A DNA stretch of 58,865 nt from Gammaproteobacteria bacterium (GTDB lineage: Bacteria; Pseudomonadota; Gammaproteobacteria; JACCYU01), in the NCBI GenBank assembly GCA_013695765.1, contig JACCZW010000017.1, positions 1 through 58,865 of the forward strand. The letters are read 5' to 3'. This document shows positions 20,358 through 37,951 of this stretch, in pieces; position 1 is the stretch's first letter; every line of letters begins with the position of its first letter. Made by a program: the position numbers and the translations under genes. Below the pieces are notes generated by a model. The model worked only from the letters and a program-made list of their open reading frames with translations, was not told where the DNA came from and made no database searches.

Positions 20358-20442
20358 GGTCAGGCACAACATCCTACGCGAGCGCGTTGCGGCTCGCCGC
20401 GTGGATTTTTGCTCGCCGTGGTTCGCGTATAGTCCATCCTCG

Positions 20443-21825
20443 ATGATTTCGACTCGCGCCATATTGCTCTTCGCCGCGTTACTCGGTGCGGCCTCCGCGC
20501 AATCCGCACCGGTACATCAGTACACCGTGAGCATCGACCTTGAGCTTCAGACCTTGAAAGTGCGCGCCTGCTTCGATGGCGCACCGCCGCGCGCGCTCGT
20601 GGCATCCTCTGAGCACGCGCCTTTTTTCGCCAAAATGGCCGGTGCTGAAGAAGATACCAAACGCCTGTCCCTGAATGGCGTACCGGATGATGGCTGTATC
20701 GACTATCGGGTGGACGTGGCCGGCATTGCCATTCTCGGCCAGTTGACCCTGGGAAGCTGGATCGGAAAAGATTTAATCCTCGCACCCGACGTGTGGCTGT
20801 GGCGTCCTGCGGACATCGACGCCGACATCGAACTGCGCTTCGACTTGCCAAAAGGCATTGCCGTCTCCGCGCCGTGGCGACCGCTGCCCGATGGCGGCTA
20901 CGACGTCGGCCATACGCCCGCGCACTGGCCCGCGTCAGTCGCTTTCGGGCGTTTTGAAGAGCGGCAGATCGAGGTGCCCGGCGCGGTGTTGCGGTTGGCG
21001 GTGCTCGACGCCGTGCCTACGAATGTGGATGCAATGCAAACTTGGGTAGCAGACGCGGCGCGCGCCGTGGCGGGCTTGTATGGGCGCTTTCCCGTGGACG
21101 CAACGCAGGTATTAGTCATTCCGCAAGGCGCAAGCGACGAACCAGTGCCCTACGCGCACGTGCAGCGCGGCGGCGCGGGCGCCATACGATTCTTTATCGA
21201 TCAACAACGCCCGCTCAGGGAATTCCTCGCCGACTGGACCGCGACGCACGAGTTCACCCACCTGACTTTACCGCTTGCGCGGCGCGGCGGCGCTTGGCTC
21301 GCCGAAGGTATTGCGAGCTATTACCAGGAAGTTTTGCGAGCGCGCAACGGCCGACTCTCAGCGCTTGAAGCCTGGCAGCGATTACATGAGGGATTTGAGC
21401 GCGGCAGACGAGCGAGCGGGAACGCAACCTTGCTCGAAGCGTCCGCAAACATCTATCGCGATGAAGCCTACATGCGCGTCTACTGGAGCGGCGCCGCCAT
21501 CGCGCTCCAGGCGGATCTGCAACTACGCAAACAAAGTGATGACAAACAATCACTGGACTCCGCGCTGGAAAAACTCGGCCGCTGCTGCCAGCCGTGGGAC
21601 CGTGCGTGGTCGGCGCTCGAACTGCTGGCGCGGCTTGATGAGCTGACGGATACGACGGTGTTTACTGAGTTGTATAGCGAACACGTTAACTCCAGCGAGT
21701 TCCCCGATCTCACGGCTGCCTACGCCGAGCTCGGCCTCGACGTCCGCGCCGGCGAGGTCGAATTACGATTTGCTCCTTACGCTGACCTGCGCGAAGCGAT
21801 CATGCGCAGGGGCGCAGTTCAATAA
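20443..21825 (+). CDS. Secreted M61-like metallopeptidase, 460 aa
   Basis: The start at 20443 gives a signal peptide (TRAILLFAALLGAASAQSA). An N-terminal beta-sandwich (VHQYTVSIDLELQTLKVRACF) precedes a gluzincin catalytic domain. ATHEFTHLTLP carries the HExxH zinc motif, and the third ligand is the Glu of WLAEGIASYYQ about 19 residues on. This matches M61/M1-type aminopeptidases in overall order but lacks the C-terminal PDZ of longer M61 proteins. It is likely periplasmic. An upstream in-frame Met at 20401 has no signal sequence and is less likely. Confidence 0.75.
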   Translation: MISTRAILLFAALLGAASAQSAPVHQYTVSIDLELQTLKVRACFDGAPPRALVASSEHAPFFAKMAGAEEDTKRLSLNGVPDDGCIDYRVDVAGIAILGQLTLGSWIGKDLILAPDVWLWRPADIDADIELRFDLPKGIAVSAPWRPLPDGGYDVGHTPAHWPASVAFGRFEERQIEVPGAVLRLAVLDAVPTNVDAMQTWVADAARAVAGLYGRFPVDATQVLVIPQGASDEPVPYAHVQRGGAGAIRFFIDQQRPLREFLADWTATHEFTHLTLPLARRGGAWLAEGIASYYQEVLRARNGRLSALEAWQRLHEGFERGRRASGNATLLEASANIYRDEAYMRVYWSGAAIALQADLQLRKQSDDKQSLDSALEKLGRCCQPWDRAWSALELLARLDELTDTTVFTELYSEHVNSSEFPDLTAAYAELGLDVRAGEVELRFAPYADLREAIMRRGAVQ

Positions 21826-21952: not shown

Positions 21953-22519
21953 TCACTGCTCCGACGGGTCTGTTTGCTGACCACCATTCTCTTTGCCCTC
22001 GCCGAGATTAATCGCCATCTGCTGGGCGCTCGCCGGTATAGGTAAATCTTCGACTCTTGTGGTTGTGATTCCAATTGCATTGGCGAAACTTACGAGACCT
22101 TTATCGTTGCTGTAAAGGCGCTCGCACTGGTTCACCTTGGCAATCGCGGCGATCTGACGATCAAGCCGAATTTTTTGCCATGACTCTGTGCCGCCACCCC
22201 GCTTATCGCCGGCCGACATCAACTTTCTGGTCTGGATCGCCAGTTCAATCGCGGCGCGACGATCGAAATCGCCCACCTCGAACCGTGTCAGCGATTGCAA
22301 CGCTGCAGTCCATTCATTAACCTTTTTGTCATCGTGCACGAGCACCTCGCTGAATGCGGGCGCCGGGATCAATATACGAGCTTTTTCTTGGGAAAGACTC
22401 GCGATCAAGTGTTCGATACGTTCTTTGCAAAGAGGGATAGGTTGCCCGGGCGCGCTTTCGTAGGGGCGATCCGGCTTCAGCACCAGAAGAAGAAAGTTCG
22501 CGTCAAACGCGACATTCAC
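21953..22519 (-). CDS. PIN-domain protein, 188 aa
   Basis: PIN domains are Mg-dependent ribonucleases. All four expected acidic positions can be placed: Asp in VAFDANFLLLVL, Glu in PAPAFSEVLV, Asp in RLDRQIAAIAKV and Asp in LYSNDKGLVSFA. The length exceeds the usual VapC toxin (~130 aa), with an insertion around residues 20-45 and a charged tail. The start overlaps the upstream 242 aa gene by 4 bases (ATGA), so the two are translationally coupled. It is the last gene of the hsd operon direction. It could be a toxin, a tRNA- or mRNA-cleaving effector, or an accessory nuclease. Confidence 0.75.
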   Translation of the reverse strand: MNVAFDANFLLLVLKPDRPYESAPGQPIPLCKERIEHLIASLSQEKARILIPAPAFSEVLVHDDKKVNEWTAALQSLTRFEVGDFDRRAAIELAIQTRKLMSAGDKRGGGTESWQKIRLDRQIAAIAKVNQCERLYSNDKGLVSFANAIGITTTRVEDLPIPASAQQMAINLGEGKENGGQQTDPSEQ

Positions 22520-23244
22520 TCGGAAACGTCTCCGTTTCGCAGCGACTCAAGCTCTTCCCACGGTTTATCGACCTCCGGCCAACCAAGGCTCTTGCCGCGA
22601 AGATTCTCAAGTTCCGTCTGCAAATCCATTGAACTAAGAACGACGTAAGACTCAATCTTGAAGCTCAACAATTCCCAGCCACCATCCTCACCCCGCAACC
22701 ACCGGCCTTTACCTTGTACACGTAAGGTCTCATGGAAGTGCCTGGCCAGATCCAGCGCCAGCGACTCCTCCAGGGAACAGGCGTATTCCTGATCGCCATC
22801 CAGCAAACCAACGTGCACGGTCTTGTCTTTGCCCTCAACGCGCACCACGCGTCCCTGAAGCGTTCCCGGCTGCCAGAACGGCGCCACGGTTTCATCCTGA
22901 TAGCGTTCCTTCCCGGGGAATCGCAAGATCTTTTTACCCGTAGTCAACGCGCCTTCGATCAGGTCTCCGCTCGCGTTATCGTTCGCGAGTAGATCATCAA
23001 TCGCCCTATACGCTCTATGGGCCGATGAATTGTCTTTCACCAGCATCAAACGCCGCTTGACCTTCGGCTCGTCCGACTCCCCGATTTGCGCGACCGGCGT
23101 CACGCTGCCGCCTTCGATGCGCACGAGCGCCGCAAGATGTTCGTGACCAAGCAAATTGCTGAGAGCAGTCAAATACTTAGCCAGCCGCTGTAGCGGAAAC
23201 GTTTCCGGCTTAAAGTCACCCTCGATATGGAGACGATATTCCAT
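22516..23244 (-). CDS. Unknown 242 aa protein coupled to the PIN gene
   Basis: I do not recognise a named family. The N-terminus (MEYRLHIEGDFKPETFPLQR, LAKYLTALSNLLGHEHLAAL) is followed by a charged beta-rich part. A central segment WQPGTLQGRVVRVEGKDKTVHVGLLDG looks like a small beta-barrel. The C-terminus (VVLSSMDLQTELENLRGK...WEELESLR) is helical, like a docking or antitoxin tail. There is no catalytic motif. It lies 119 bases downstream of hsdS on the same strand and overlaps the PIN gene by ATGA. A role as partner or inhibitor of the PIN nuclease is inference from coupling only. Confidence 0.7.
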   Translation of the reverse strand: MEYRLHIEGDFKPETFPLQRLAKYLTALSNLLGHEHLAALVRIEGGSVTPVAQIGESDEPKVKRRLMLVKDNSSAHRAYRAIDDLLANDNASGDLIEGALTTGKKILRFPGKERYQDETVAPFWQPGTLQGRVVRVEGKDKTVHVGLLDGDQEYACSLEESLALDLARHFHETLRVQGKGRWLRGEDGGWELLSFKIESYVVLSSMDLQTELENLRGKSLGWPEVDKPWEELESLRNGDVSE

Positions 23245-23362
23245 GGTCTATGCGGCTGTTTAGTCGAGTCGTATAGCAAGTATAGACAAGCGCGGATTCC
23301 GTGTATCCCTGGTTCAGGCAGAACCTAAGCGCCGGCGCCTTGTGAATCGTGCCTTCAAACCG

Positions 23363-24472
23363 TTACTGGAAACACCGCGAAGCCAGCGAAGTGTGCAGCG
23401 TGTCGGCCCCTGCCGCCTGTTGTTCATGGCGGAAGACGAGGCTTTGGATATCGCGAACGCGGTCGGCGAATTCGTGTTGCAGAGCGATGGGCGGCACAGG
23501 GATGGAAAAAGCTTTCAATTCCCGAGCATTGATATTCGCCTGCCCGATTGCTCCCCTCGCAGTCCCGTAGAGCCTGTATTTCATGTATTTCGTGTTGAAA
23601 AAGGCCCACACGTAACACGGTGATACTCGCTCATTCGAGACACGCAAACGAATGAAATAGGACGCGGCTACGGCTCTAATTTCTCTGTCCCAAATACCCG
23701 TCTTTCCTACAAGATCCTTGCTGTTGGTTCTATTGAACAGCAAGTCACCCGCGCATAATGAGTATTTTTCTGCTACTCCGGCGGGAAGATTAGCGTACTT
23801 GAGATCAGTGAGATCAAGATCGCCCGCGGTGGTTACGTTGCCCATCCGTAGCATGGGCGGGCCCACTGGATCGCTGGTCGCTTTCCTGCTAGTTCCGTAG
23901 TCACAGGCATCGAGAAGTTCGCCCAGCGGGACAACTGGTAAATTCTTCGGATTCCTTGCGGGATCGCCGAACATCTGGATGAACAGAGCGGGGATCAGCT
24001 CGCGCGCCTTGGCGATGGCCTCGCGCCGCAGGCGGCGGATGCGATTCGCGTGGTTGAGGATTTCGACGATGCGGCGTTGTTCGGCTAGAGGTGGGAGCGG
24101 CACAGTTTCCCTGTACGCATCTTCTCTGTTTAAGCCTGGCACTCCGGTGCTCGTGCGCAACCTGGCAAGGTTCAGATGAAGTAGTGCGGAATATAAGAAC
24201 TGAAGATCTAACGTCGCAGGTTCGCGGCGAACCACGTAGTACGTCGTGTCAATCGGAAAACTGGAGACTTCAGTGAGTTGTATTTCACCGGCGCTCCCTT
24301 TACGACCAACGATAATCGTTGGCTCCGGGACGATTGCTTGGTCATGGTATCCGGCAATGCCATTAGCGCCGTATACGGGAATGGAGCCAGACCGCCTTAG
24401 CCGCGCCGGCAAGCTTTTGCCATAGGCGAGTTCGATGATTTCACCAAGCGGCACACGAGGCCACCGACTCAT
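23363..24472 (-). CDS. hsdS: Type I restriction-modification specificity subunit HsdS, 369 aa
   Basis: HsdS chooses the DNA target of the M2S methylase and R2M2S nuclease. The start at 24472 (MSRWPRVPLGEIIE) overlaps the hsdM stop by ATGA. Two target-recognition domains are visible. TRD1 is residues ~1-130 (IPVYGANGIAGYHD, IIVGRKGSAG), followed by the conserved linker PLPPLAEQRRIVEILN. TRD2 begins near LPVVPLGELLDACDYG (GDLLFNRTNSKDLVGK) and ends in the second linker PVPPIALQHEFADRV. The two TRDs make the recognised sequence bipartite; its bases cannot be predicted here. Confidence 0.88.
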   Translation of the reverse strand: MSRWPRVPLGEIIELAYGKSLPARLRRSGSIPVYGANGIAGYHDQAIVPEPTIIVGRKGSAGEIQLTEVSSFPIDTTYYVVRREPATLDLQFLYSALLHLNLARLRTSTGVPGLNREDAYRETVPLPPLAEQRRIVEILNHANRIRRLRREAIAKARELIPALFIQMFGDPARNPKNLPVVPLGELLDACDYGTSRKATSDPVGPPMLRMGNVTTAGDLDLTDLKYANLPAGVAEKYSLCAGDLLFNRTNSKDLVGKTGIWDREIRAVAASYFIRLRVSNERVSPCYVWAFFNTKYMKYRLYGTARGAIGQANINARELKAFSIPVPPIALQHEFADRVRDIQSLVFRHEQQAAGADTLHTSLASRCFQ

Positions 24473-26136
24473 AACACTGTTTCTTTGAGCCTGGTCTCCA
24501 GCGCCTCCATCTCCCGCACGATCTCGTCCTCCATCGCCCGCAGCTCGGCGAGAATTTCCAGCGGCTCGCGATGTTCGGTTTGCAAGTGAGTGATGGGGCG
24601 ATAGCGGCCAGCGGATAAATTGTATTCGTTGGTCGCGAGTTCTTCGCGCGTAGCGAACCACCAGTTGTTGATCCAAGCAATCGGCCGCTCACCCCCACCC
24701 TGGCCCTCCCCCATCGTGGGGGAGTGGATTGATTTTTCCTGCCATTCTGACCAACGCGCGGCGCGATTCCTGAACACTTCCACCAGGCTCGGCAGATCGT
24801 CGGCCTCGATGGGCGTGTTGTGCTGCGCATCCAGTTTGTAGCCGTCGTTGTCCGCCCACAGAAACAGCACGCGCTCGGTTGTCCCACCTTTCGTAAACAG
24901 CAGCACCGAGGTCTTGACGCCGGAATAGGGCTGGAACACGCCGGCCGGCAGCGACAGCACCGCTTCGACCGTGTTGTTCTCGATGAGCATGCGGCGGATT
25001 TCCCGGTGCGCCTTGGTGGAGCCGAACAACACGCCCTCGGGCACGATCACGCCGCAGCGGCCGCCGGCTTTGAGCGAATCCAGCATGTACTTGAGAAACA
25101 GGATCTCGGTGGCGCGGGTGGCGCCGATCTTCACGTCGTCGGTGAGGCGGTCGCGATCCACGCGGCCGGAAAACGGCGGATTGGCGAGGATGACGTCGTA
25201 GCCTTCATCGGGCAGACCGAGCTCGGCCTTTTGTTGCGCGTCCAGCGCGGTGGTGAGCACGTTGCGACGGCGGATGAACACGTCCGGCAGACCGCGCAGG
25301 GTTAGATTCATGGTGGCGAGGTGCACCATCTTTAAGTCGACGTCGTTGCCGTAGAAGGTGCGCCTGCCGAGGATGTCCCACTTCGCGGCGGAAAGCTTGT
25401 CACCGTGGCCGCGGCGCATGGTTTTTCCATCCAGCATGATTTCCTCAGTGGCATGCTCGGACGAGTTTTGCAGCCGGATATGATCGTAGGCCGCGACCAG
25501 AAAACCGGCCGTGCCGGCGGCGGGATCGTACACCGTTTCGCCGATTTGTGGGTCGAGCATGCGCACGATGGCGCGGATGATGTGGCGCGGCGTGCGGAAC
25601 TGGCCCAGTTCGCCGGCCTGCTTGATCTGGCCCAGCACGTATTCGAACAGATCACCCTTGGTGTCGGCGTCCGCCTGCTCCAGGCGCAGTTCATCGACCA
25701 AATTCAACACCTGCGCGAGCACGGTGGGCTCGTCGATGGTCAGCCGCGCGCCATCCATGAAGTTGACCGCGGAGCGCGAGGCGGCCCGCGCGTAGAAGGC
25801 GAAGATCTCGTCGCGCACGAAGCGCACCAGCGGCTCGCCGCTGAGCACGCGCGCCCACGCGGACCAGCGCAGCCGCTCCGCCGGGATCGTATTTGCTTCC
25901 GGCGCTGGCGCGTTCAAGGGATTCTTGAGCGCCCAGACACCCGTGAACTGGCTCGCGTGCTCACGCCCGGCGAGCCTGGCCCTGGCCGCGGACTCGCGAT
26001 CCCAATGTTCGCTCAGGTAGAAAAAGAAGAAGAACGCCAGTTGCTCGGCGTTGCTGATCGGGTCGGGATAGCCGCCGCCGTAGAGGTAATCGCGGATCTG
26101 GTCGATCTTGCGGCGGAGGTCGGGGGTTAACGGCAT
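24469..26136 (-). CDS. hsdM: Type I restriction-modification methyltransferase HsdM, 555 aa
   Basis: HsdM makes N6-methyladenine within the HsdS target. The start at 26136 (MPLTPDLRRKIDQIRDYLYG) is a standard HsdM opening; 83 codons of open frame upstream belong to the other strand's composition and to hsdR overlap. Motif I is DPAAGTAGFL (residues 204-213) and motif IV is NPPF (319-322). A short stretch near residues 469-485 (SIHSPTMGEGQGGGERP) is foreign-looking and coincides with a GC-rich palindrome at 24706-24724. The reading frame is preserved, so the enzyme may still work. It lies 10 bases after hsdR. Confidence 0.9.
   Translation of the reverse strand: MPLTPDLRRKIDQIRDYLYGGGYPDPISNAEQLAFFFFFYLSEHWDRESAARARLAGREHASQFTGVWALKNPLNAPAPEANTIPAERLRWSAWARVLSGEPLVRFVRDEIFAFYARAASRSAVNFMDGARLTIDEPTVLAQVLNLVDELRLEQADADTKGDLFEYVLGQIKQAGELGQFRTPRHIIRAIVRMLDPQIGETVYDPAAGTAGFLVAAYDHIRLQNSSEHATEEIMLDGKTMRRGHGDKLSAAKWDILGRRTFYGNDVDLKMVHLATMNLTLRGLPDVFIRRRNVLTTALDAQQKAELGLPDEGYDVILANPPFSGRVDRDRLTDDVKIGATRATEILFLKYMLDSLKAGGRCGVIVPEGVLFGSTKAHREIRRMLIENNTVEAVLSLPAGVFQPYSGVKTSVLLFTKGGTTERVLFLWADNDGYKLDAQHNTPIEADDLPSLVEVFRNRAARWSEWQEKSIHSPTMGEGQGGGERPIAWINNWWFATREELATNEYNLSAGRYRPITHLQTEHREPLEILAELRAMEDEIVREMEALETRLKETVL
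24706..24724. repeat. GC-rich palindrome inserted in-frame in hsdM
   Basis: CTCCCCC ATCGT GGGGGAG is a perfect 7-bp stem with a 5-base loop, preceded by CACCCCCACCCTGGCC. Repeats of this type (ccctccccc...gggggag) are widespread mobile intergenic palindromes in Proteobacteria. Here the repeat is read in frame and adds roughly 17 residues to HsdM. Confidence 0.6.
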
Positions 26137-26146
26137 TGATTGTCCT

Positions 26147-28269
26147 TCAGACTTCCGGCCGCGCGCCGGGCGCATCGGCTGAATCAGCCTCGCCGAATAC
26201 GGCGTGATTGAGACTGGCCAGTATTTGTCGCAGCCTCTCCTCGTTGCCGAAGGTTTGAATCGCACGTTGCATGCCGCCGATATGGGAAAACGGCGGCACC
26301 AGAAAATGATCTGTGGTGAAGTTCTCCAAGGTATCCGCGTTGGCGCGGATGTATTCGCCGATGGTGAGCAGCAGGCGCGATTCATCCGCGTTCAGCTTGG
26401 TTTGCGCGGCTATCCAGGCCTCGAAACGCGCGCCGCGCAGCGCGGCCTGTTGCACGTCCGGATCGAGAAATCTGAGGTTCCCGTTCTCATCCACGGTGAT
26501 CCACTCGCGCGTGGTGGGATCGATGTGGTCGTCCACGTCCAGCGTGAGCAAACGCGCGACCCGTACTTGTCTTTCGACCTCGTTTCCCGGATCGCGCCGC
26601 CTTCGGGTATGGTCTCGTCATCCTGGTGATAATCGGTGACGCCGACGAAATCGAACATCGTGAACAGCGCCTTGCCGGGCGCCTTGCGGGTGCCGCGCCC
26701 GCGCATCTGACGGTACAGGACAACGGAACGGGTAAACCGCGCCATGACGAGGTTGACGACCTCGGGCGCATCGAAGCCGGTATCCAGCATGTTGACGGAT
26801 ACCAGGATCTGCGGGAACCGCTCGCGCTTGAAACGCTTGATCTTGGTGGCCGCGTCCACGCTGTCGTCCTTGCCGAATCCGGAGACGACGAAATCCGCGT
26901 ACCGAATATTCGGCGCGGGTTTCGCGAATGCATTCGCCTCGTCGAGCAGTTGCGCCAGGGTCTCGGCGTGGCGCTTGGTGACGGCGAACACAATGGTCTT
27001 GCCGAGCAGCGGTTTGCGCATGTGGCCGCGCGAATCCACATAGCCGTGCTCCATCACCTGCTTGAACTCGCGCACGATCGCGCGGTTGCGTTCGGGGATG
27101 GTGAACTTGCGCTCCAGCGCGTTCGGATCGACCTTGATTCTATCCGTATTGGAGAACAGCGCCTCGAATTCGGCCTTGGCCTCTGGCGACATCGCCGACC
27201 AGTCGAGCTCGTCGCGCTTGACCTGGAAGCCTTCCTCGGCGGCGGTCTTGACGGTTTGCGCCTTGTAAATCTGATATGGCGCCAGATACCCATCCCTGAC
27301 GGCTTCGGACAGCGTGTAACGGAAGGTCGGCTCGGCGACTTCAAAGAAGCGCAAGGTGTCGCGCACCAGGAGTTTGTCTTCCTCGTCGCCGCTTTCGATC
27401 GCGCTGGTGAAGGGCGTGGCGGTGAGCCCGATCTGGATGCTGTCGAAGTACTTGAGTATGCCGCTCCACTTGCCGTAGATGCTGCGGTGACATTCGTCGG
27501 TGATGACGAGATCGAAATACCCTGCGGCGTATTCGCGGTAGGTATTGATCATGCTCTGCAAGGTGGTGATCGTGATGCGCTTTTCATCCTGAAATCTGCG
27601 GCCGGCGCGCAACACGTAGCAGGGCAACGCCGCGAGGTGCTCGGAAAAAGCGTCCTCGGTCTGCGTCGCCAGGGTGATGCGGTCGACCAGAAACAATACG
27701 CGCGTGATGGCGTTCGCCTCGCACAGGCGCTTGATGAGCGCCGCAGCCATACGCGTCTTGCCGGTGCCCGTGGCCATTTCCACCAGCAGCTTGCGGCGGC
27801 CGGCATTGATTGCCCGGCACAGGACATCGATGCAGTCCCGCTGATAATCGCGTCCGGCAATGACCAGGTCGATCGGACGGGTCAGCGGATCGACTCGCAG
27901 TTCGCGGCTTGCCAGGCGGCGTTCGAGATCGTTCTGCCTGAAAAAGGTGCTGACCGGACGTGGAAAGGCTTCCGTGCTGTAATCCCAGAAGCGTATCTGC
28001 TCGCCGTTGGCGATGAACACGAACGGCACGCGATCGAGTTGCTCCGCATAGCGGCGGCCCTGGGCGGCGGCCTGATCCAGATTGCGCGCGGCGCGCTTGG
28101 CCTCGATCACGGCCATCGCGCGACCGTGGCGGTCGCATAACACATAGTCGGCGCGAGTGCCGTCCGGCAGCGGATATTCGAAACGAACGGAGACGCCGTC
28201 GGTGAGCTTCCAGCCGACATCTTTCAATAAGCTATCGATGACCGCTCGAGAGTAAGCTTCGTTGGGCAT
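26147..28269 (-). CDS. hsdR: Type I restriction endonuclease subunit HsdR, one frameshift near 26560
   Basis: HsdR translocates DNA with ATP and cuts it when two complexes meet. From 28269 the protein shows the nuclease motif (TRADYVLCDRHGRAMAVIEAK, Asp41 and Glu56-x-Lys58) and Walker A ATGTGKT (166-172). The DECH box (258-261), TATP (283-286) and helicase motif VI region LYRQMRGRGTR follow. Near 26560 the frame breaks after KYGSRV. Adding a G to the GGG there gives KYGVARLLTLDVDDHIDPTTREW and carries the protein to 26147, about 707 aa in all. If the change is real, only the last ~135 residues (HsdM-contact region) would be lost, which should disable restriction but not methylation. Confidence 0.85.
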
Positions 28270-28322: not shown

Positions 28323-28607
28323 TTACCCTCGCCATAAGCGTCGGCGGGTCAATACACTGCATGCAGCGTCCGCCTCGTCTTCCGATTCGATCTCCTTGAT
28401 TTGTTCAGCGCTCATCGAGCGTAATGGAGAGTCCGCGGCCAAGCGGATCGGCGGTTTAATCAGTCGGCGGCGGCGAGGCGACGGTGGTTCATCGAGTTCA
28501 CGACGCAGGGCATTCGCGACGAATTCGCGCAACGTAGCGCCGCGCTCCACTGCCACGATCTTGGCGCGCTTCAGGAGGTCGTCCGGCAAGTCGAGTGTGG
28601 TACGCAT
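28323..28607 (-). CDS. Ribbon-helix-helix (CopG/VapB-type) DNA-binding protein, 94 aa
   Basis: MRTTLDLPDDLLKRAKIVAVERGATLREFVANALRREL is a clear ribbon-helix-helix DNA-binding domain of the VapB antitoxin type. A linker with RLIKPPIRLAADSPL and MSAEQIKEIESEDEAD matches the toxin-binding tails of such antitoxins. The last residues (SVLTRRRLWRG) look unnatural and may reflect a frameshift or join. No VapC toxin follows; instead hsdR begins 53 bases downstream on the same strand. It may be an orphan antitoxin or may repress the hsd operon that it leads. Confidence 0.75.
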   Translation of the reverse strand: MRTTLDLPDDLLKRAKIVAVERGATLREFVANALRRELDEPPSPRRRRLIKPPIRLAADSPLRSMSAEQIKEIESEDEADAACSVLTRRRLWRG

Positions 28608-28699: not shown

Positions 28700-28890
28700 C
28701 GGCGATGATTCTCCGACATTGCCCGATCCTGCGGCAACGTTACCCCAGGGCGCCCAGCCCGGCCACATCGGCTCGATCACCGGCTCATCCGCTTTATAAT
28801 GCGCCACCACGCGAAACGGGCGACTGGCGCTGGTATTGTCGTATACATACGTTTCATCCGCGAGCGCAATCGCCCCGCCCATCGTACAAG
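28700..28890 (-). pseudogene. Zeta-toxin-like kinase C-terminal remnant
   Basis: On the minus strand one frame reads GGAIALADETYVYDNTSAS and RPFRVVAHYKADEPVIEP. This resembles the C-terminus of zeta-toxin/UDP-GlcNAc-kinase-like proteins (LADEAYVYDNT...PFRLVAR). The P-loop half is missing, and no start remains upstream, where the next gene on the opposite strand begins. It would be the decayed toxin of a small toxin-antitoxin-like unit next to the RHH gene. The match rests on about 35 residues. Confidence 0.4.
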
Positions 28891-28977
28891 CTCGAACTCG
28901 TTTCTCCAGAGCACGCGGGGCGTGAAGATTTCGTTGACACCACGAGCGCGGACATATCAAAACGGATCGCAAAGGTG

Positions 28978-29511
28978 ATGGAAAAGCGCATTGGCTGGAG
29001 CACTGTCAAAACGCGGCTAAAAGTCTTTGACCGCGAGGGTCTTATGGGGTTGATCCAGGATCTCTACGGGTTGAGCCAAGACAATCGATCCTTCCTGCAT
29101 GCCCGTTTCTCGCTGGGCGCCGATCCACTCGACGTGTACAAGCAACGGATGCGCGCAGCCTTGTTTCCGCCGTTGAACAAACCGGTACGCGTGGCTGATG
29201 CCCGGAGAACACTCTCTGAGTATCGCAAGGCGATCGGCCGACTGGAAGGACTGCTGGAACTGCATGTGTTCTGGTGCGAGACGGCCTGCCGGTTTTCGAT
29301 GGACTACGGCTATGCGGAAGACGCGTATTTCGATCCGCTACTGCGCCAGTTCGAGGCCGCGCTTAAACTTCTGCTGTCCGTGGATTTGTCGCCCCGCGAA
29401 GCAGCGCTCGCGAGACTCGTTGCGGTCCGCGATGAGATGGACGTGGGTTACGGCGTACAGGATGAAATGAGCTGGTTGCTGGAACAAGCCGGGGTGCGTG
29501 ATGAAAGTTAA
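28978..29511 (+). CDS. DUF6155-like hypothetical protein, 177 aa
   Basis: The start at 28978 (MEKRIGWSTVKTRLK) follows AAAGG and fits the family's beginning. The protein is all-helical and acidic to neutral: LKVFDREGLMGLIQDLYGLS, DNRSFLHARFSLGADPLDVYKQ, LSEYRKAIGRLEGLLELHVF, FSMDYGYAEDAYFDPLLRQFE. This pattern resembles small cytoplasmic DUF6155-type proteins found scattered near mobile genes; the function is unknown. It overlaps the next gene by 11 bases. Its place between type I restriction and Wadjet genes hints at a defence or toxin-antitoxin role, which is inference. Confidence 0.6.
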   Translation: MEKRIGWSTVKTRLKVFDREGLMGLIQDLYGLSQDNRSFLHARFSLGADPLDVYKQRMRAALFPPLNKPVRVADARRTLSEYRKAIGRLEGLLELHVFWCETACRFSMDYGYAEDAYFDPLLRQFEAALKLLLSVDLSPREAALARLVAVRDEMDVGYGVQDEMSWLLEQAGVRDES

Positions 29512-29856: not shown

Positions 29857-31083
29857 TCACGGCACGCGGGCTTCGTCCAGATCCTCAAGCAGTTGTTCCA
29901 CGACAGCTTCTTCGTGGACCGCAAATCCGACCTCCATCATGGCCGCGGTGAGTTCAACATCCCAAGCGGCTGTAACGGGATCGCCCGCCAGAGCGTGCCC
30001 ATGCTTACGACGTGCGCGCAAATACTCTTCCGTGCCGTAGCACCAAGGCGCGGTCGCGAATGCGCGCATGACGAAGTTGCCGATGTGAATACCCGGCCAG
30101 TCGAAGTCGCCGTGATAGCAAAGCCTTGCGCCCGCGGCGGCGAGTTGGGCGAGCAAGGTGCGTTGCGCGGCCGCCGGCATGCCATCCGTGCAGACCAGCG
30201 GCGCGCATGTTGCGCCGAGGCGATCGGCGGCGATGGCGACGACCGACGGGTTTTCACACACGTAGATCGTGCAACCCGACACCCGCCAGCGCGGCGGCGC
30301 GCGCAGCAGCCCCCGCAGCGAGAAATTCAGCGGTTCGCCCTGCGTCCGCGCCGCCTCGGCCAACATCCCCAGCGGCATGTCGCCATGCGCGCGCAGGTTT
30401 AGAGCCAGCGCGGGTCTTGCCAGCTCGTTGACCAGCACGCCCGCGCGCGCCCAGATGTCTCGCGCGCCAGCTTCGGCATCGGATGCTTCCTGCTCCGCGC
30501 GCAGAGCAGCGACTACCAGCGTGGCGACCGGGCGGCCTTTGTCCAAAGCATGTGCGTCGCCGAGTACTTCCGCGGCGAGCCGGCTGCGCGGTACGCCGGT
30601 CGCGGGCAGCCGCGCCAGCACGCGCGACGCGTGGGTGAGCAACCGTTGCGCGAGATCGGAATCGGCGACCGCGAGACGCTTGACCATGCCTTGTGCAGCC
30701 GTATGCTCAAGACACTGGATCAATCGCGGCTCGGCGATGGCGGCAAAGACGGCTTCCCACGATCGCTCGCGAGCGCCGCGTTCGGCATTAAGATCCGGGA
30801 TATGGCCATCCAGCGCTTCCAGCGCATCGCGCAAGGATTCCGCGACACCGGCACGCCGCAGAGCCTCGTCAACTTCCGTCAAGGTCATGCGCATGGAATC
30901 CGCGCGGCGGGAGCGCCGGCCCAGCAATCCTTCCAGCACCCGGCGTTCGGCCGAATTCAAACGCGACAACGTAAACTGCTCGCGCAGCGTGCCCCGCTCA
31001 AAGCGGGAGCGCAGCCGCTCCCGAAGAATTTTCAACTCAGCGCCGCCCAGCAATCTTGTCAGCCGTTCGCGATCCCAGTTCAT
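29857..31083 (-). CDS. jetD: Wadjet type II JetD (DUF2399/TIGR02679), Toprim nuclease, 408 aa
   Basis: JetD is the nuclease subunit that cuts plasmid DNA after the SMC-like JetABC complex senses a small circle. The N-terminal part (~1-230) is helical and binds DNA. The C-terminal Toprim fold shows the key glutamate Glu277 in VCENPSVVAI and the Asp-x-Asp pair (Asp326, Asp328) in YHGDFDWPGIHIGNF. All catalytic residues are therefore present. The start at 31083 overlaps jetC by 4 bases. It is the last gene of a four-gene operon in the order A-B-C-D, standard for the type II system. Confidence 0.9.
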   Translation of the reverse strand: MNWDRERLTRLLGGAELKILRERLRSRFERGTLREQFTLSRLNSAERRVLEGLLGRRSRRADSMRMTLTEVDEALRRAGVAESLRDALEALDGHIPDLNAERGARERSWEAVFAAIAEPRLIQCLEHTAAQGMVKRLAVADSDLAQRLLTHASRVLARLPATGVPRSRLAAEVLGDAHALDKGRPVATLVVAALRAEQEASDAEAGARDIWARAGVLVNELARPALALNLRAHGDMPLGMLAEAARTQGEPLNFSLRGLLRAPPRWRVSGCTIYVCENPSVVAIAADRLGATCAPLVCTDGMPAAAQRTLLAQLAAAGARLCYHGDFDWPGIHIGNFVMRAFATAPWCYGTEEYLRARRKHGHALAGDPVTAAWDVELTAAMMEVGFAVHEEAVVEQLLEDLDEARVP

Positions 31084-34000
31084 GCCGGCAAGCCTGGGAA
31101 CCGTCGCTCAGGATCGTCCTCCCGCCGGCGTGTCTTGCCGTCCCACTGCCAGCGCGAGACGAACACCGCGTCCGCGCCCTCGCGGCGCACGAGCTGGCAG
31201 ATCGCCACACCCGGCAGCTCGGCGTAACAACCCCACTCACGCTCGCTGGTCATGACGAAATCCAGATCGAACTCGCGGATCAGCGCCATGCAGTGCGCAC
31301 GCGCGTCGTCGTCGATGCCAGCAAATGCCTCGTCCAGCAACACCAGCCGCGGCGCATTCGGCGCCGCGCTGTGATAGTGACTGCTGGCGGCGGCGAACAG
31401 CGGCACCGTCAAACCCAGCGCGCGCTCGCCACTGGACGCGGGTCCGGACAACGGTTTCCAGTCGCCATCCTGGCGGCGCTGCACGGCGAACCGATGCCAG
31501 TACCGATAATCCAGCGCCCGCGACAGGCTTTCCAGTTGCGTGAGCTGCTCATCGCGGATGCGCTCGGACGCGATGCGGTTTTGCAGAAACTCACCGACCG
31601 CGCGTCGATCCTCCATCGACCAGGCTTCGGCGCTGGTCCGCAGCAGACGCCGACGCACCTCCGCCAGGCCGGTGGGCGCGCCGTCCACGGCCTCGTTTAG
31701 TGGCTGCCAAACAAGCCGGTAGCGCAGGCCGGTGGATGTCGGACGCCGATAGAGTTCCTCATTGATTGCCTGGACACGCTGCTCGGTGTCCTGGATCAGG
31801 CGTTGCAACTGCGCCGCGACTTCCTGCTGGAGGTGATTCTCCAGCACTTCGCGTTCGCGCGCCGACAGCAGGGCGCGTCGCTCGCTCCGCTCGGCTTCGA
31901 GCTTGCGCTCCAGTGCGTCCGGTCGCTCCGGCCGCTGCTGATAGACAATGCGCACGAGCAGACAGTCGTCGGCGACCTCGGCGCTTGCCTCATGTCCTTG
32001 CGCGGACATCGCGCGTTGCAGTTCCGTATAGTCATGGCCGATGCCACTCTGGATGCGAGACCAGTCGGCGTCTTCGGCGCTGATCTCGACAAGCGTCTGC
32101 TCCGCCCGCCGCGCCACTGTCAGCGCGAGTTCCACGCCCCAGCCGGCGCCGGGCTCAGGGAGGGACACGTCAGGCAGCGCGCTCGCAAGCAGGCCGGTGA
32201 CGGCGAAGCTTTGCAGACCCTCGATCGCGCGCCGGCGCGCCTCACCACGCTCATTGAGATCCTCACGCAGACCGCTGGCCTTCTGCGCGGCGCGGGCCTC
32301 CGTGCCGCTGCCTTCGATCAAGTCTTGCGTGGCCGCCTTCAGCTCAGTCTCGTGCTGGCGCCGGGCATGATCGGCTTGAGCGATCTTGCGCTGCAATGCC
32401 TCTACCTGGTCTCCGACCGTTTCCAGCAAGGTGTTCAAAGTCGCTTGCGCTTCGATCGAGGCGCGCTGACGATCATTGGAGTCGGCCTGACTCGCCGCAA
32501 GATCATTGCTGGCCTGCGCCTCGCGCTCCAACTGGTGTGCAAGTTCAAACAACGCGCGCCGATGATCGCGTAATGCATTCGAAAACTGGTCGACCGCACC
32601 ACGGTATTCGTTTAACCCGTGCTCGACGGCTTCCAGACCCTCCCGATCCGTCGGAAGCCGCGTATCGGCGGCGTCCTGCTCCAGTGTTTCACGCGCCCGG
32701 GCCGCGGCCTGCTGAAGCTCGGCAAGGCGCGCTTCGATCTCGCCCAAACGCGCCTGGGCCGCGCGCCGATTGCCCTCGGCGGCAATGAACGTCGCCTGAA
32801 CGCGGAGTAAAGAGTCTGCTTTGGGCGCGGTCTCGAACTCAGCCTGCGCCGCCGCGCGCCGCGTTGATATTTTCTCGAGGTCAAGGCGCAACTGATCCAA
32901 AGCCGCGCTCAGGTCGTCAAGCCGCAGCGAGATCTCCGACAGCCGCTGGCGCCGCGCGGCCTCGCGCGCCGCATGACCGATGTACTGCGCTTGCGGTTTG
33001 GACCACGCGCCGTGCGCGGGACCGACGCGGAATTCGCCGCTGCGTGATACCCATGCTTCCGCCTCTGCTGCGTCCTGATCGCAACAGGCAATGCATTCGA
33101 GGATTCCGGCTACCGTCTCGCCGCCGACCGCGGCGCCCGTGCCGCTGTTTGAAATCGTCGGCCGCACCCACTCGGCGAGCGAGGGCGCGGCCACAGGTTC
33201 GCGTGCGATCAGCCGCAGGTCGTGGGTGGCGGAATCGTGCACTTCGCCCTGTGGCGTCACCCATGCATCAAGCAGTCCGGCCGCCTCCAGCGCGGCTTCG
33301 ATGCCGGCGCGCTCGGCCGCCGGCACGTGATCCTTAAAGTCGACCAACTGCCACAGCGCGGCACCCGCTTGCCCGGTCCGCGCCTGCTCCGCGCGCGTGT
33401 GAGGCGGCGGCGGTGTGCGATCTTCGCCCTGCTCCAGACGCTTCCGCTCGGCTTCGCGCTCGGAGTTTTCTGCTTCCAGTTCGCGGCGGCGCCGCAATAG
33501 CTCCGCTTCTCGTGCGGCTAAGGCTTGTTCCTGCTCACGGCGGGCGTTCTCCAGCGCCGCGTGCATAGGGTTAAACCCGGCACCGGTCTCAACCCAGTCC
33601 TCCAGGTTTGCCAGCGACTGCTCGGCGTCCGCCAAACGCAAGATGCGCAGCGCGCCAGCATGGCCACGCCAGTCGGCTACCAGGCTTGACGCGGCTTGCC
33701 GTTGCGACTGCAAGGCTTCCGCCACGGCGGTGCTCGCCGCATCGAAATCGTCGGCCCGTGCGCGGCGCGTTTCCTGTGTCTGCCGCTGGACCAGCCGCGC
33801 CTGCTCGAACTCGCGTACGCGCTTGCGGATGAATTGCACCTGTTCAGCGCGAGCCAGTGCCGCTGCGCGCAGTTCACGTTGCATCCTTTCGGCGAATCCT
33901 GTGGGTTCGTTGGCCACGCCATCCGGCAAGTCAAGCTCGCTCAGCTCCCGCGCGTGCACGGCTTGCAGCCCAGTCTCGGAGGCGAGCCGCGCGGCGTGCT

Positions 34001-35213
34001 CCTGATTCCCCGCAAGACTTGCGCGCGACAGTGCGGCGTCTTCGCGGCGCTGTGCGGCACCGACGCTTTCTCGCTCCAGTCGCTCGCGATCCGCCGCAAG
34101 GCGTGTTTCCGCGCCATCGTGATCCAGTCGCGCCTTATCGGTTTCGGTGCGCGCCCGGTCAAGCCGGTTGGCGTCACGATTGACTGGATCTTCCTTAAGC
34201 GCGCCCAGACGCGCCCGATCTTCGATCAATCGTGCTTCCAATTCCGTCAGCATCATGCGCACTCGCGCGACCTCGGCTTGCACCTCCCGCAGTTCCTGCT
34301 CCGCGGCGTTGAGATCGCGGCTGGTATGGTCGTGCAGAGTTTGCGCGCGGCGCAGCACCGCTGCGCGACGCCGGCTCGCGACCTGCGCGTAACGCCGGTA
34401 ACGCCGCTCGAAGGCATTGACGGCTTTGCACATCGCGTCCAGCTCTTCGAGCTCGCGGCGAAAATCGTCCAGCTGATTCATGGCCTCGGCGACGTCGTCC
34501 AGGGTAGCGCGATCCAGCGGCGGCAGCGCCTCGGTGAGCGCGGCGGACAGACGTTTTTCGTCGGGCTGCTTGGAGAGCTGCGGCTGGCGCAACTGAATCA
34601 ACGTGTCGATCAGCGCACCGTAGCGCTCGGCGCCCAGGCGAAACAGACGCTCATCCACCGCGCGACGATAGGTTTGCGCGGTCTCGAATACCTGACCCCG
34701 ACTGCCCAGCGCCTCGATCAGACGCTCGCACGAGAGCGCGGTGCGCTCCGGCGTCGTCAGCCACAGATCCTCGCCGGGACGCTGAGCTGTTACGAAATAC
34801 CAACTTTCCACCCGTGTACGGCCGACGACCGCGCGCAGACCGCAGCCCAGGGTGAAGATCAGCACTTCGCCCGCATCGTCAAGGCGACCGAATTCTACCC
34901 AGGCGTAGCCGACGCGGCGCTCGTGGCGATTGCCCATGAGCAGATTCCAATCCATGCGCTTGCCGCGATCGCCATCCGGCTCGAGACGCACGGACGCGAG
35001 ATTGGCGTCGAGCAGAAACGGCAAGGTCAGCGACAGCACCTTGGACTTTCCCGTGCCATTGTTCCCGCGCAGCAGCAGATGGCCATCGCGAAACCAGAAC
35101 TCCTCCGCGTCGTAGTGGTACAACTCGACGAGTCCCATGCGTAGCGGCTGCCACCGCTCGCGCTCAGGTTGTGGCAAAACCGGGACGTGCGTGTTGACGG
35201 TGAAATCGTTCAC
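31080..35213 (-). CDS. jetC: Wadjet type II JetC (TIGR02680), SMC-like ATPase, 1377 aa
   Basis: JetC is the motor of the Wadjet complex and extrudes DNA loops like condensin. The P-loop is GNNGTGKS (residues 50-57). The ABC signature is GPASSGERALGL (~1255), and Walker B is RLVLLDEAFAGIDDD (~1290-1303). Between these lie long coiled coils (residues ~280-560 and ~780-1010) on either side of a hinge-like region near 640-760 (VDFKDHVPAAERAGIEAALE). The full length is as expected for the family, and no frameshift is seen. It overlaps jetB and jetD by 4 bases each, so the three are translationally coupled. Confidence 0.93.
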   Translation of the reverse strand: MNDFTVNTHVPVLPQPERERWQPLRMGLVELYHYDAEEFWFRDGHLLLRGNNGTGKSKVLSLTLPFLLDANLASVRLEPDGDRGKRMDWNLLMGNRHERRVGYAWVEFGRLDDAGEVLIFTLGCGLRAVVGRTRVESWYFVTAQRPGEDLWLTTPERTALSCERLIEALGSRGQVFETAQTYRRAVDERLFRLGAERYGALIDTLIQLRQPQLSKQPDEKRLSAALTEALPPLDRATLDDVAEAMNQLDDFRRELEELDAMCKAVNAFERRYRRYAQVASRRRAAVLRRAQTLHDHTSRDLNAAEQELREVQAEVARVRMMLTELEARLIEDRARLGALKEDPVNRDANRLDRARTETDKARLDHDGAETRLAADRERLERESVGAAQRREDAALSRASLAGNQEHAARLASETGLQAVHARELSELDLPDGVANEPTGFAERMQRELRAAALARAEQVQFIRKRVREFEQARLVQRQTQETRRARADDFDAASTAVAEALQSQRQAASSLVADWRGHAGALRILRLADAEQSLANLEDWVETGAGFNPMHAALENARREQEQALAAREAELLRRRRELEAENSEREAERKRLEQGEDRTPPPPHTRAEQARTGQAGAALWQLVDFKDHVPAAERAGIEAALEAAGLLDAWVTPQGEVHDSATHDLRLIAREPVAAPSLAEWVRPTISNSGTGAAVGGETVAGILECIACCDQDAAEAEAWVSRSGEFRVGPAHGAWSKPQAQYIGHAAREAARRQRLSEISLRLDDLSAALDQLRLDLEKISTRRAAAQAEFETAPKADSLLRVQATFIAAEGNRRAAQARLGEIEARLAELQQAAARARETLEQDAADTRLPTDREGLEAVEHGLNEYRGAVDQFSNALRDHRRALFELAHQLEREAQASNDLAASQADSNDRQRASIEAQATLNTLLETVGDQVEALQRKIAQADHARRQHETELKAATQDLIEGSGTEARAAQKASGLREDLNERGEARRRAIEGLQSFAVTGLLASALPDVSLPEPGAGWGVELALTVARRAEQTLVEISAEDADWSRIQSGIGHDYTELQRAMSAQGHEASAEVADDCLLVRIVYQQRPERPDALERKLEAERSERRALLSAREREVLENHLQQEVAAQLQRLIQDTEQRVQAINEELYRRPTSTGLRYRLVWQPLNEAVDGAPTGLAEVRRRLLRTSAEAWSMEDRRAVGEFLQNRIASERIRDEQLTQLESLSRALDYRYWHRFAVQRRQDGDWKPLSGPASSGERALGLTVPLFAAASSHYHSAAPNAPRLVLLDEAFAGIDDDARAHCMALIREFDLDFVMTSEREWGCYAELPGVAICQLVRREGADAVFVSRWQWDGKTRRREDDPERRFPGLPA

Positions 35214-36439
35214 AGCAACGAGCTTTGCTTGCCGATCAACGGCGCTTCGAACGCGAAGCGCAACAACGCGGGCCGCGCCTGTACACCGCCTTCGACCGAG
35301 GCGACCAGCTTGAGCGCGCTTAACCGCGCCAGCGCCTGCTCGGCCAGACCCTGCTCCGCGCCAGGCTCACGCGCTGCCTTCTTCCAATAACGGCCATGCC
35401 GATCGGCGGCTTCGCGCAAGAAAGCCGCGATCTCGGACAACGCGTACAAACGCCCAGGCGCCTCGCGCGCGCCGGCGGCCAGATGCTCGGCGACCAGCAG
35501 GGTGGCGTGCGCCTCCGTGCCGACCGCGGGCATGCGCTCGTCGGTCAGTTCGCCATCCGGATCGACTAGCGCAAGGCCCTCCGCGCGCAGTTCGGCGGCC
35601 AGTCCAACCGCACTGGCCAGGCGCGCCGCCAGCGGCCCACGCTGTGTCGCCAGATACTCGCGCTCCGCCTCGCTCAACTCGTCGTGATACGTCACGGGGT
35701 CGTCCAGCAACCGCCGCGCGAGTCGATGCCGAACCGCTTTGCGGCGGCCTTCATCGCTATCCGGGTCATACGCCTCGACCAGGGCGCTCAAGCGCGCATC
35801 GAAGTCCAGGCCCGGCCGGGTCGCGGCGATGTAGCTCGCGCCCAGTGCGCCGCCAGGCAGCGCGGCCAGCACGCGGCGCTGCACATCGTAAAGCACGTCG
35901 CCCGTACCGATAACATAGGCCTCCTCGTCGCCGGCCACGCGCGCGAGCACGCCAAGTTGCAGGAGATAACGACAGACGTGCACGAGGGCGCGGCGTTCGC
36001 GCATCGGTTCCAGGGTAAACCCAAACCCGCGCGCGGCGAGCTGCGGCTCCGCTGCGGCTTCGAGCATGCGGCTGCCAAGCATCGCGAGCGTGATCTGCGG
36101 CTCGGCACGCTCCAGCACCGCGCAAATCAGGCACAGCAGCACGTAACGCTCGCGGCCAAGCTCGCCTGCGAAGCCGGGCGCGCCACGGGTGGCATCGTCA
36201 AGCGCGGCCGGGCGCTTGTAGAGCCGCGCGCATTCGCGTTCGACGTGCAAGGTCCAGCCGGTTTCACGCGCCAGCCACTCGCGCAGACTCGGCGCGTGGC
36301 GGCGCACCGGCGCGTAGTCGGGATCCGTGGCTGCCAGGAGCGGACGCATCAGCAAGGCGCGTAAGGCCCGCTCGCGCTCCGCGTCCTGCTGACGCGCCAG
36401 CACTTCGGCCGGCTCCGAACGGACGGCGTCGCGGGCCAT
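35210..36439 (-). CDS. jetB: Wadjet type II JetB (DUF2398/TIGR02678), KITE-like subunit, 409 aa
   Basis: JetB is the small kleisin-interacting subunit, comparable to MukE, built from winged helices. The sequence shows ALRALLMRPLLAATDPDYAPVRRHAPSLREWL, CARLYKRPA, YVLLCLICAVLERAEPQITL, and the C-terminal LYALSEIAAFLREAADRHG...WKKAA. These match the type II family throughout. Its length is normal. It begins 3 bases after jetA ends and overlaps jetC by 4 bases. Confidence 0.88.
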   Translation of the reverse strand: MARDAVRSEPAEVLARQQDAERERALRALLMRPLLAATDPDYAPVRRHAPSLREWLARETGWTLHVERECARLYKRPAALDDATRGAPGFAGELGRERYVLLCLICAVLERAEPQITLAMLGSRMLEAAAEPQLAARGFGFTLEPMRERRALVHVCRYLLQLGVLARVAGDEEAYVIGTGDVLYDVQRRVLAALPGGALGASYIAATRPGLDFDARLSALVEAYDPDSDEGRRKAVRHRLARRLLDDPVTYHDELSEAEREYLATQRGPLAARLASAVGLAAELRAEGLALVDPDGELTDERMPAVGTEAHATLLVAEHLAAGAREAPGRLYALSEIAAFLREAADRHGRYWKKAAREPGAEQGLAEQALARLSALKLVASVEGGVQARPALLRFAFEAPLIGKQSSLL

Positions 36440-36442
36440 TGA

Positions 36443-37951
36443 TTACAGCGCGCGGATCAGGACGAGATGATCGCGCCCCATAAAACGACCAAGCTCGGTC
36501 TCGATCACGGCCACACTTTCGGCACTAAGCGGCTCCAGACGAACGAGCAGCAGACCGTCGTTACTGGCGCGTTCCACCGGCAGATGCGGTGCTACCTGTA
36601 CTGCGAGCGCCTCGCCAAGCAGATTCAGAAAAAGCCTGAAGGCATGCCGGTCCAGCGCGCCCAGCTCCGACAGTCGAATGTCGCGACCGGTGGCCAGACG
36701 CGCACGCGCGGCTGCAAGCTGCGCGGCTTCCTCAGCCAGTTGCGCGGCGAGCAGCGCGCGCTCGCGGGAGCGATCCTGGATCCTGGGCGGCCCGCCGCGG
36801 GTTGCGAGCTGACCGACCTCGCGCAGGCGCGGATGGATTGGCAGCGGCGGCGCATCCCGCCACGAGGCCGCCGCGCTGACTTCTTCGCCTACCGCGAGCG
36901 ACAAGTGTCGCGCTGGCGCCAGACCGAACGCGGCACGCCACAGCCGGTGTGCTTCGCCGACGTTGCGCGTCTCCGCGAACCACAGCGCCAATGTACGAAA
37001 GTCCGCGCTGCGATCGCTGCGTCCAGCGCGGCGCTCGTTGAGCGTGGACACCGCACTGAGCAGGCGCGGAATCGCCGCGCGCGCGCTGGCGCGCAGCAAT
37101 TCTGACTGCGACTGCGCGCGACCATCGGAGACGAACCAGCGCAGCAGCCCCGACCAGCGCTCCTCCCAGGCTGCTATTCGTTGCGTTACTGCATCGTTGC
37201 GCGCCTGTGCATCGCCGGGCGCGGCATCGTGTGCCTCGCGCTCGGCTGCAATCCGCAGCAGGTTTGAGCTGATGGAGCCAAGTTCGCGCAGCTTGAGCGA
37301 GATGCGGCTGGAGCGCTCGACCAGATCGCCGATGAAGCGCTCCAGGTAGTCGATCAGGCGCGTCTTGAACGCCATCACCGCGTCCAGCTCCGCGCGCTGC
37401 AACTCCAGGGTGCGCGCGAGACCCGCCATGAAAGCTTCCGCGTTCTGTGCCAGCCCGGCGAAAACATTGACCAGATCGCGCAGCGCCTCGTGCACCTTGG
37501 CGGTGTCCGGCGGCGTGTCGCGCGCAAGCTGCGCCAGCCCCTCAAGCCGGTCGAGGATGTCGGCCAGCGCCACCGATTGCAGCTCCCCTTTACGCGCCAG
37601 CGCCTCGGCAAAGGCCTGTAGGCCGACCTCCGCGGCCTCACCGCCGGGCGTGAGCCGATAGAGCAGACGCTTGCGGTAAAAGTCCTCAATAGTGGATACG
37701 CGGGCGGTATCCGGCTGCGCCTGCAGATTGCCCCAGTCCACCAGTTGCGCAAGCCACGTGGTCAGTTCGTCCGCGCCAGGCGCCGCGGCTGGCCATTGCG
37801 CGTCCAGCAAAATCTCATCGGGCCGCAGGTGCAGACGAAATTGCCGCTTGGCTGCGGCAAAGCAATGCATGATCGTGCGGTAGTTGTTCGCGTGATCGGT
37901 GGTCACGTGGCGGAACAGCGTCGCGTTGGAGGTTGAGATCGAATCAGTCAT
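36443..37951 (-). CDS. jetA: Wadjet type II JetA (DUF2397/TIGR02677), kleisin-like subunit, 502 aa
   Basis: JetA plays the MukF/kleisin role, bridging the JetC heads. The N-terminal winged helix (ATLFRHVTTDHANNYRTIMHCF, LDAQWPAAAPGADELTTWLAQLVDWGNL, TIEDFYRKRLLYRLTPGGEAAE) is followed by a helical bundle and coiled coil (LELQRAELDAVMAFKTRLIDYLERFIGDLV). The C-terminal winged helix ends in LVLIRAL. The TG-rich intergenic region upstream (37952-38076) should carry the operon promoter, although I see no clear -35/-10. It is the first gene of the operon. Confidence 0.88.
   Translation of the reverse strand: MTDSISTSNATLFRHVTTDHANNYRTIMHCFAAAKRQFRLHLRPDEILLDAQWPAAAPGADELTTWLAQLVDWGNLQAQPDTARVSTIEDFYRKRLLYRLTPGGEAAEVGLQAFAEALARKGELQSVALADILDRLEGLAQLARDTPPDTAKVHEALRDLVNVFAGLAQNAEAFMAGLARTLELQRAELDAVMAFKTRLIDYLERFIGDLVERSSRISLKLRELGSISSNLLRIAAEREAHDAAPGDAQARNDAVTQRIAAWEERWSGLLRWFVSDGRAQSQSELLRASARAAIPRLLSAVSTLNERRAGRSDRSADFRTLALWFAETRNVGEAHRLWRAAFGLAPARHLSLAVGEEVSAAASWRDAPPLPIHPRLREVGQLATRGGPPRIQDRSRERALLAAQLAEEAAQLAAARARLATGRDIRLSELGALDRHAFRLFLNLLGEALAVQVAPHLPVERASNDGLLLVRLEPLSAESVAVIETELGRFMGRDHLVLIRAL

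Follow-up and report, generated by a model that had tools for sequence, protein, structure and literature searches.

The window, a gammaproteobacterial stretch of 58,865 nucleotides, carries a pair of genes, here called A and B, that probably forms a mobile two-gene toxin-antitoxin-like module, in which the OB-fold protein A would restrain the PIN toxin B, serving retention of the carrier element and/or phage exclusion. Both genes lie on the minus strand, with A (22516-23244; a 242 aa ORF) as the proposed antitoxin or sensor and B (21953-22519; a 188 aa ORF), a PIN-domain protein, as the proposed endoribonuclease toxin. An earlier, sequence-only reading had described these two ORFs, and both are present as it placed them. 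Its ATGA overlap has to be corrected to GTGA, formed by the GTG start of B and the TGA stop of A. The pair does follow hsdS on the same strand, as claimed; the hsdS stop at 23363 and the start of A at 23244 leave a gap of 118 nt (23245-23362, minus strand), in which a simple scan found no sigma-70-like promoter or terminator.

As had been noted for the 242 aa protein, A belongs to no recognised family. At a cut-off as loose as E = 1, the window protein still matched nothing in Pfam, NCBIfam, or PADLOC, a sequence search of the PDB gave no match, and its one family match (phrog_19868, E 1e-35) is listed by PHROGs as of unknown function. The AlphaFold model of A (pLDDT 91.7) showed an N-terminal alpha/beta domain (residues about 1-110), an OB fold (about 123-204), and two C-terminal helices (about 208-237). 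In a fold search, the OB fold matched SSB, PriB, and the OB domains of aminoacyl-tRNA synthetases with Z scores of about 9-10, and this shared fold suggests that A, as modeled, binds nucleic acid. None of the Pfam antitoxin families was matched among 89 A members. The top viral fold match was DUF6575 (TM 0.43), followed by a protein of Leptospira phage LE1. The corresponding Pfam family, PF20215, had no match in the genome of the window and only two weak partial matches in 398 genomes, one of which (L137) had no obvious PIN gene adjoining within 3.2 kb.

For B, the window protein likewise gave no match to Pfam, NCBIfam, or PADLOC at E = 1 and none in a sequence search of the PDB, and it fell into phrog_21691 (E 6.6e-28), also listed as of unknown function. 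Its relatives were more readily placed, with 72 of 89 matching the Pfam PIN family. All four acidic residues of the PIN active site had been reported from the letters alone, and D6, E58, D120, and D139 are indeed there and were kept in 102 of 102 nonredundant pairs, with a further acidic residue, E92, kept in 101. The AlphaFold model of B (pLDDT 92.1) aligned with VapC structures over 125-138 residues (Z 13-14.7; rmsd 2.3-2.8 over 125-136 residues) and also resembled RNase P HARP and Nmd4; B is therefore predicted to have a VapC-like PIN fold. At 188 aa it is, as had been remarked, larger than VapC toxins (about 130 aa), with insertions near residues 15-30 and 100-115.

We collected relatives of the pair from genomes, plasmids, and viral contigs. 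With a profile of A, 9 of the 398 genomes searched in the phylum gave a match, and a search with A alone among 93 nearer relatives gave no match except in the window's own genome. When plasmids were searched by tblastn, seven records had A and eight had B; for the most part these were the same records, with the two matches adjacent. Scanning viral contigs with the single A protein gave no match, and viral relatives were found instead through alignments with conserved stretches; both genes are present, for example, in the Pseudomonas phages Ostro and Pacha_bin_1. Scans with B yielded 38 loci in viral sequences and 80 in genomes, which are the best of 165. Except at loci cut by a contig edge, every B locus also holds A, on the same strand and with A first, and every A locus in the whole-genome search has B. 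The family is distributed over Pseudomonadota, Acidobacteriota, Nitrospirota, Planctomycetota, and Thermodesulfobacteriota.

The arrangement of the pair was constant, with A followed by B in the same direction in 102 of 102 nonredundant pairs. The two genes overlap by 1-17 nt in 81 of these pairs and abut in 12, and in the other 9 they lie 3-8 nt apart. With start codons chosen computationally, GTG or TTG starts were assigned to 41 of the 102 B genes compared with 20 of the 102 A genes. In a mirror-tree comparison, the distances of A and B were correlated with r = 0.77, against a maximum of 0.20 in 500 shuffles, and dN/dS was 0.02-0.18 in both genes for those pairs of relatives close enough to measure. 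A and B are thus an inseparable gene unit under purifying selection, and since relatives in the same order occur across several phyla and dN/dS is this low, they are genuine genes and not chance ORFs.

Where the unit has decayed, it has done so in one direction. In L002, B is disrupted by one inserted base compared to the otherwise identical L146, and A is intact; in L007 and L016, B is disrupted and A is intact; and in L185, B is absent and A is intact. A fifth locus, L191, has an altered end of A and no recognisable B. B kept alongside a broken A was never seen except at contig edges. Retention of A without B, and never the converse, fits B as toxin and A as antitoxin, with the polarity resting on four loci (L002, L007, L016, and L185), at least two of them metagenomic, which is a small number. 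Among three near-identical Sinorhizobium megaplasmids, at least one carries the one-base insertion that breaks B and leaves A intact (L002:6000-7300 compared with L146), and a second gives an identical broken-match pattern for B.

In the proposed mechanism, B would act as a toxic endoribonuclease whose cleavage of RNA stalls growth, with tRNA or rRNA as likely targets by analogy with VapC. A, being made first, would keep B inactive, and its OB fold may bind single-stranded DNA or RNA. A could then release B upon loss of the module or upon encountering foreign nucleic acid, for instance that of a replicating phage, so that the carrier element would be retained and/or competing phages excluded. 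Speaking against a toxin-antitoxin reading, A has no match to an RHH, HTH, AbrB, or Phd family and is larger than its toxin. A more specific version, which we offer tentatively, is that the OB-fold protein, besides restraining the PIN RNase, is a sensor of tRNA or of foreign single-stranded nucleic acid, and that the pair, spread by IS1595 transposons and serving the lysogenic immunity of temperate phages, may form an undescribed class of mobile phage-exclusion or toxin-antitoxin system.

Among the closest known arrangements are the VapBC type II toxin-antitoxin systems, which share with A–B an overlapping two-gene operon with the partner first, a four-acid PIN toxin whose fold is that of the predicted structure of B, and a frequent presence on mobile elements. 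VapB is short, however, and carries a DNA-binding domain of the RHH, HTH, AbrB, or Phd type, whereas A has 242 aa and an OB fold. By this analogy A–B would be a type II-like module that resembles VapBC in how it works but, judged by its antitoxin, is not VapBC. The earlier description of a toxin-antitoxin-like architecture, in which an undescribed family is paired with a PIN nuclease, is supported by these comparisons. The same families appear in phages as phrog_19868 and phrog_21691, for which no pairing, mechanism, or transposon association is given. Neither an OB-fold antitoxin for a PIN toxin nor this pair was described in the literature searched, a body that leaves most subscription papers outside. 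The pair represents a widespread two-gene family missed as such by Pfam, NCBIfam, and PADLOC, with an antitoxin candidate unlike VapB.

Most copies of the pair stand by themselves, whether in a transposon, a prophage, a plasmid, or an unrelated chromosomal setting. In 17 loci, A is preceded on its own strand, at a distance of 25-295 nt, by an IS1595-family transposase, either whole or as a remnant. Seven of the 17 loci are elements of 2466-3284 bp; each has an exact 8-bp target duplication, and their terminal repeats agree at 20-25 of 25 positions. In three of the seven, no other ORF of at least 80 aa follows B inside the element. In the tree, all 17 transposase-linked loci fell, scattered, within a single 43-row group whose support, 87, is not strong, and the scatter implies that transposon carriage is old and often lost, or was gained repeatedly. 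Another 13 rows, set apart from these and grouped together with weak support, are all from phages. Passenger toxin-antitoxin pairs, PIN toxins included, are likewise found beside the transposition genes of Tn3-family transposons (PMC7157771); A–B differs from these in its IS1595-family vehicle, and it is not among the passengers described there. Around the window copy, neither a remnant of a transposase nor a convincing pair of terminal repeats was found, and the copy bears no transposon or phage signature of its own. In one contig binned as a Woesearchaeota genome (L092), the pair sits in an IS1595-type transposon that is intact and has an 8-bp target duplication, reflecting either transfer between domains or mis-binning.

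In several phages (e.g., L008, L009, and L040), an S24/cI repressor gene lies upstream of the pair on the same strand, a position that is not a feature of the window copy. One subtype of the pair was found in 32 of 5426 E. coli genomes, and the E. coli copy that was inspected belongs to a prophage remnant in which its neighbours are Arc-family genes, an antirepressor, and a tailspike, surroundings that we take to resemble the immI region of P22, which holds the exclusion gene sieA. Together, the links to IS1595 transposons and to the immunity regions of temperate phages make it possible to test directly whether an OB-fold protein acts on a PIN RNase as its antitoxin and also senses infection.

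These phage contexts also bear on the role of A, which could equally be an activating, RexA-like sensor instead of an inhibitor. In lambda, RexA is proposed to act on RexB (PMC12894663), and the rexAB genes, like the phage relatives of the pair, form a two-gene set that follows the cI repressor in a temperate phage. A full sensor-effector abortive infection system, in which the OB fold of A detects phage replication intermediates and activates B and A is no antitoxin, appears unlikely, even though the predicted OB fold of A, the position of the pair directly behind cI in Pseudomonas phages, and the Arc-family gene next to the E. coli copy in a phage immunity-like region are all in keeping with it. 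The first gene of both pairs would encode a nucleic-acid-binding protein, as presumed for A, but RexB is a membrane protein whereas B is predicted to be a globular PIN protein, and no sequence relation was found. A matched RexA neither by sequence in the PDB nor among the 50 fold matches listed, a result that leaves room for a match outside that list. The persistence of A without B, and never the reverse, is a better fit to an antitoxin.

Far less probable is that the pair is a housekeeping RNA-processing or RNA-repair enzyme, with a PIN nuclease as one subunit and an RNA-binding OB protein as the other. Both folds are general in RNA-processing machines and the model of B does match RNase P HARP and Nmd4, but the pair is rare and patchy, as the counts of 9 of 398 and 32 of 5426 genomes given above show, it is carried by mobile elements, and it has decayed in some hosts.

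In the window, the pair occupies one end of a defence island of mixed content, formed by a type I restriction-modification system and Wadjet type II, all on the minus strand. Beyond A lie hsdS (type I specificity subunit; 23363-24676, true start probably near ORF residue 65-70), hsdM (methyltransferase; 24469-26385, true start probably near residue 83-86, at about 26,130), and an EcoAI-like hsdR (restriction subunit; 26147-28269), in which a frameshift near 26,550 separates ORF 26410-28269 from ORF 26147-26551; the frameshift is either real, making hsdR a pseudogene, or an assembly error. A complete JetABCD set follows at 29857-37951 (JetD, 29857-31083; JetC, 31080-35213; JetB, 35210-36439; JetA, 36443-37951). 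The other side of the pair is marked by an M61-like peptidase gene on the plus strand (20401-21825), and the DNA shared with a same-genus genome stops at 21,805, just at the end of this gene. At the same spot, that genome has a different cassette (L145:10630-12404), in which genes named by eye encode a 187 aa PIN-like protein, a 375 aa HTH/ImmA-like (metallopeptidase-like) protein, and a methyltransferase-like protein; the contig ends there, so the comparison delimits one side of the island only. The spot beyond the M61-like gene looks like a hotspot for defence cassettes.

The earlier reading had proposed a functional tie of the pair to restriction, as a guard or as a second layer, and had named in advance a failure to recur near restriction genes as telling against this. 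When neighbours were tabulated with the window's Hsd proteins as queries and flanks of 1.5-8 kb, a search that may miss distant type I systems, similar genes were found near 1 of about 130 other loci (L118), on the opposite strand. For the guard part of the claim, the outcome named in advance has thus come about, and this part is not supported. PADLOC, run on the nearest neighbours of about 72 loci, returned scattered defence genes, each family being represented by one to three members. A toxin-antitoxin pair or RNA-cleaving second layer dependent on the adjacent type I system is thus the least credible of the explanations, since its one point in favour, the place of the pair 118 nt behind hsdS on the same strand, is set against this near-absence of similar restriction genes at the other loci, against the movement of the pair without them on transposons, phages, and plasmids, and against the mosaic of the island with Wadjet II and the different cassette in the same-genus genome. 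The end position in a mixed island accounts for adjacency to hsd genes without a functional link; the adjacency to hsdS probably reflects shared residence in the island, and the window copy is probably independent of both the type I system and Wadjet II. The case cautions that, within a defence island, a neighbouring restriction gene should not be taken as a guide to function.

Two further ORFs were noted in the island. Between the restriction and Wadjet genes, a 268 aa ORF on the plus strand (28705-29511) had no match in Pfam, PHROGs, NCBIfam, or PADLOC. On the minus strand, a 94 aa ORF (28323-28607) resembles VapB (Pfam VapB_antitoxin, E 0.001, below the cut-off); it is followed by hsdR, with no vapC behind it, and is possibly an orphan antitoxin.
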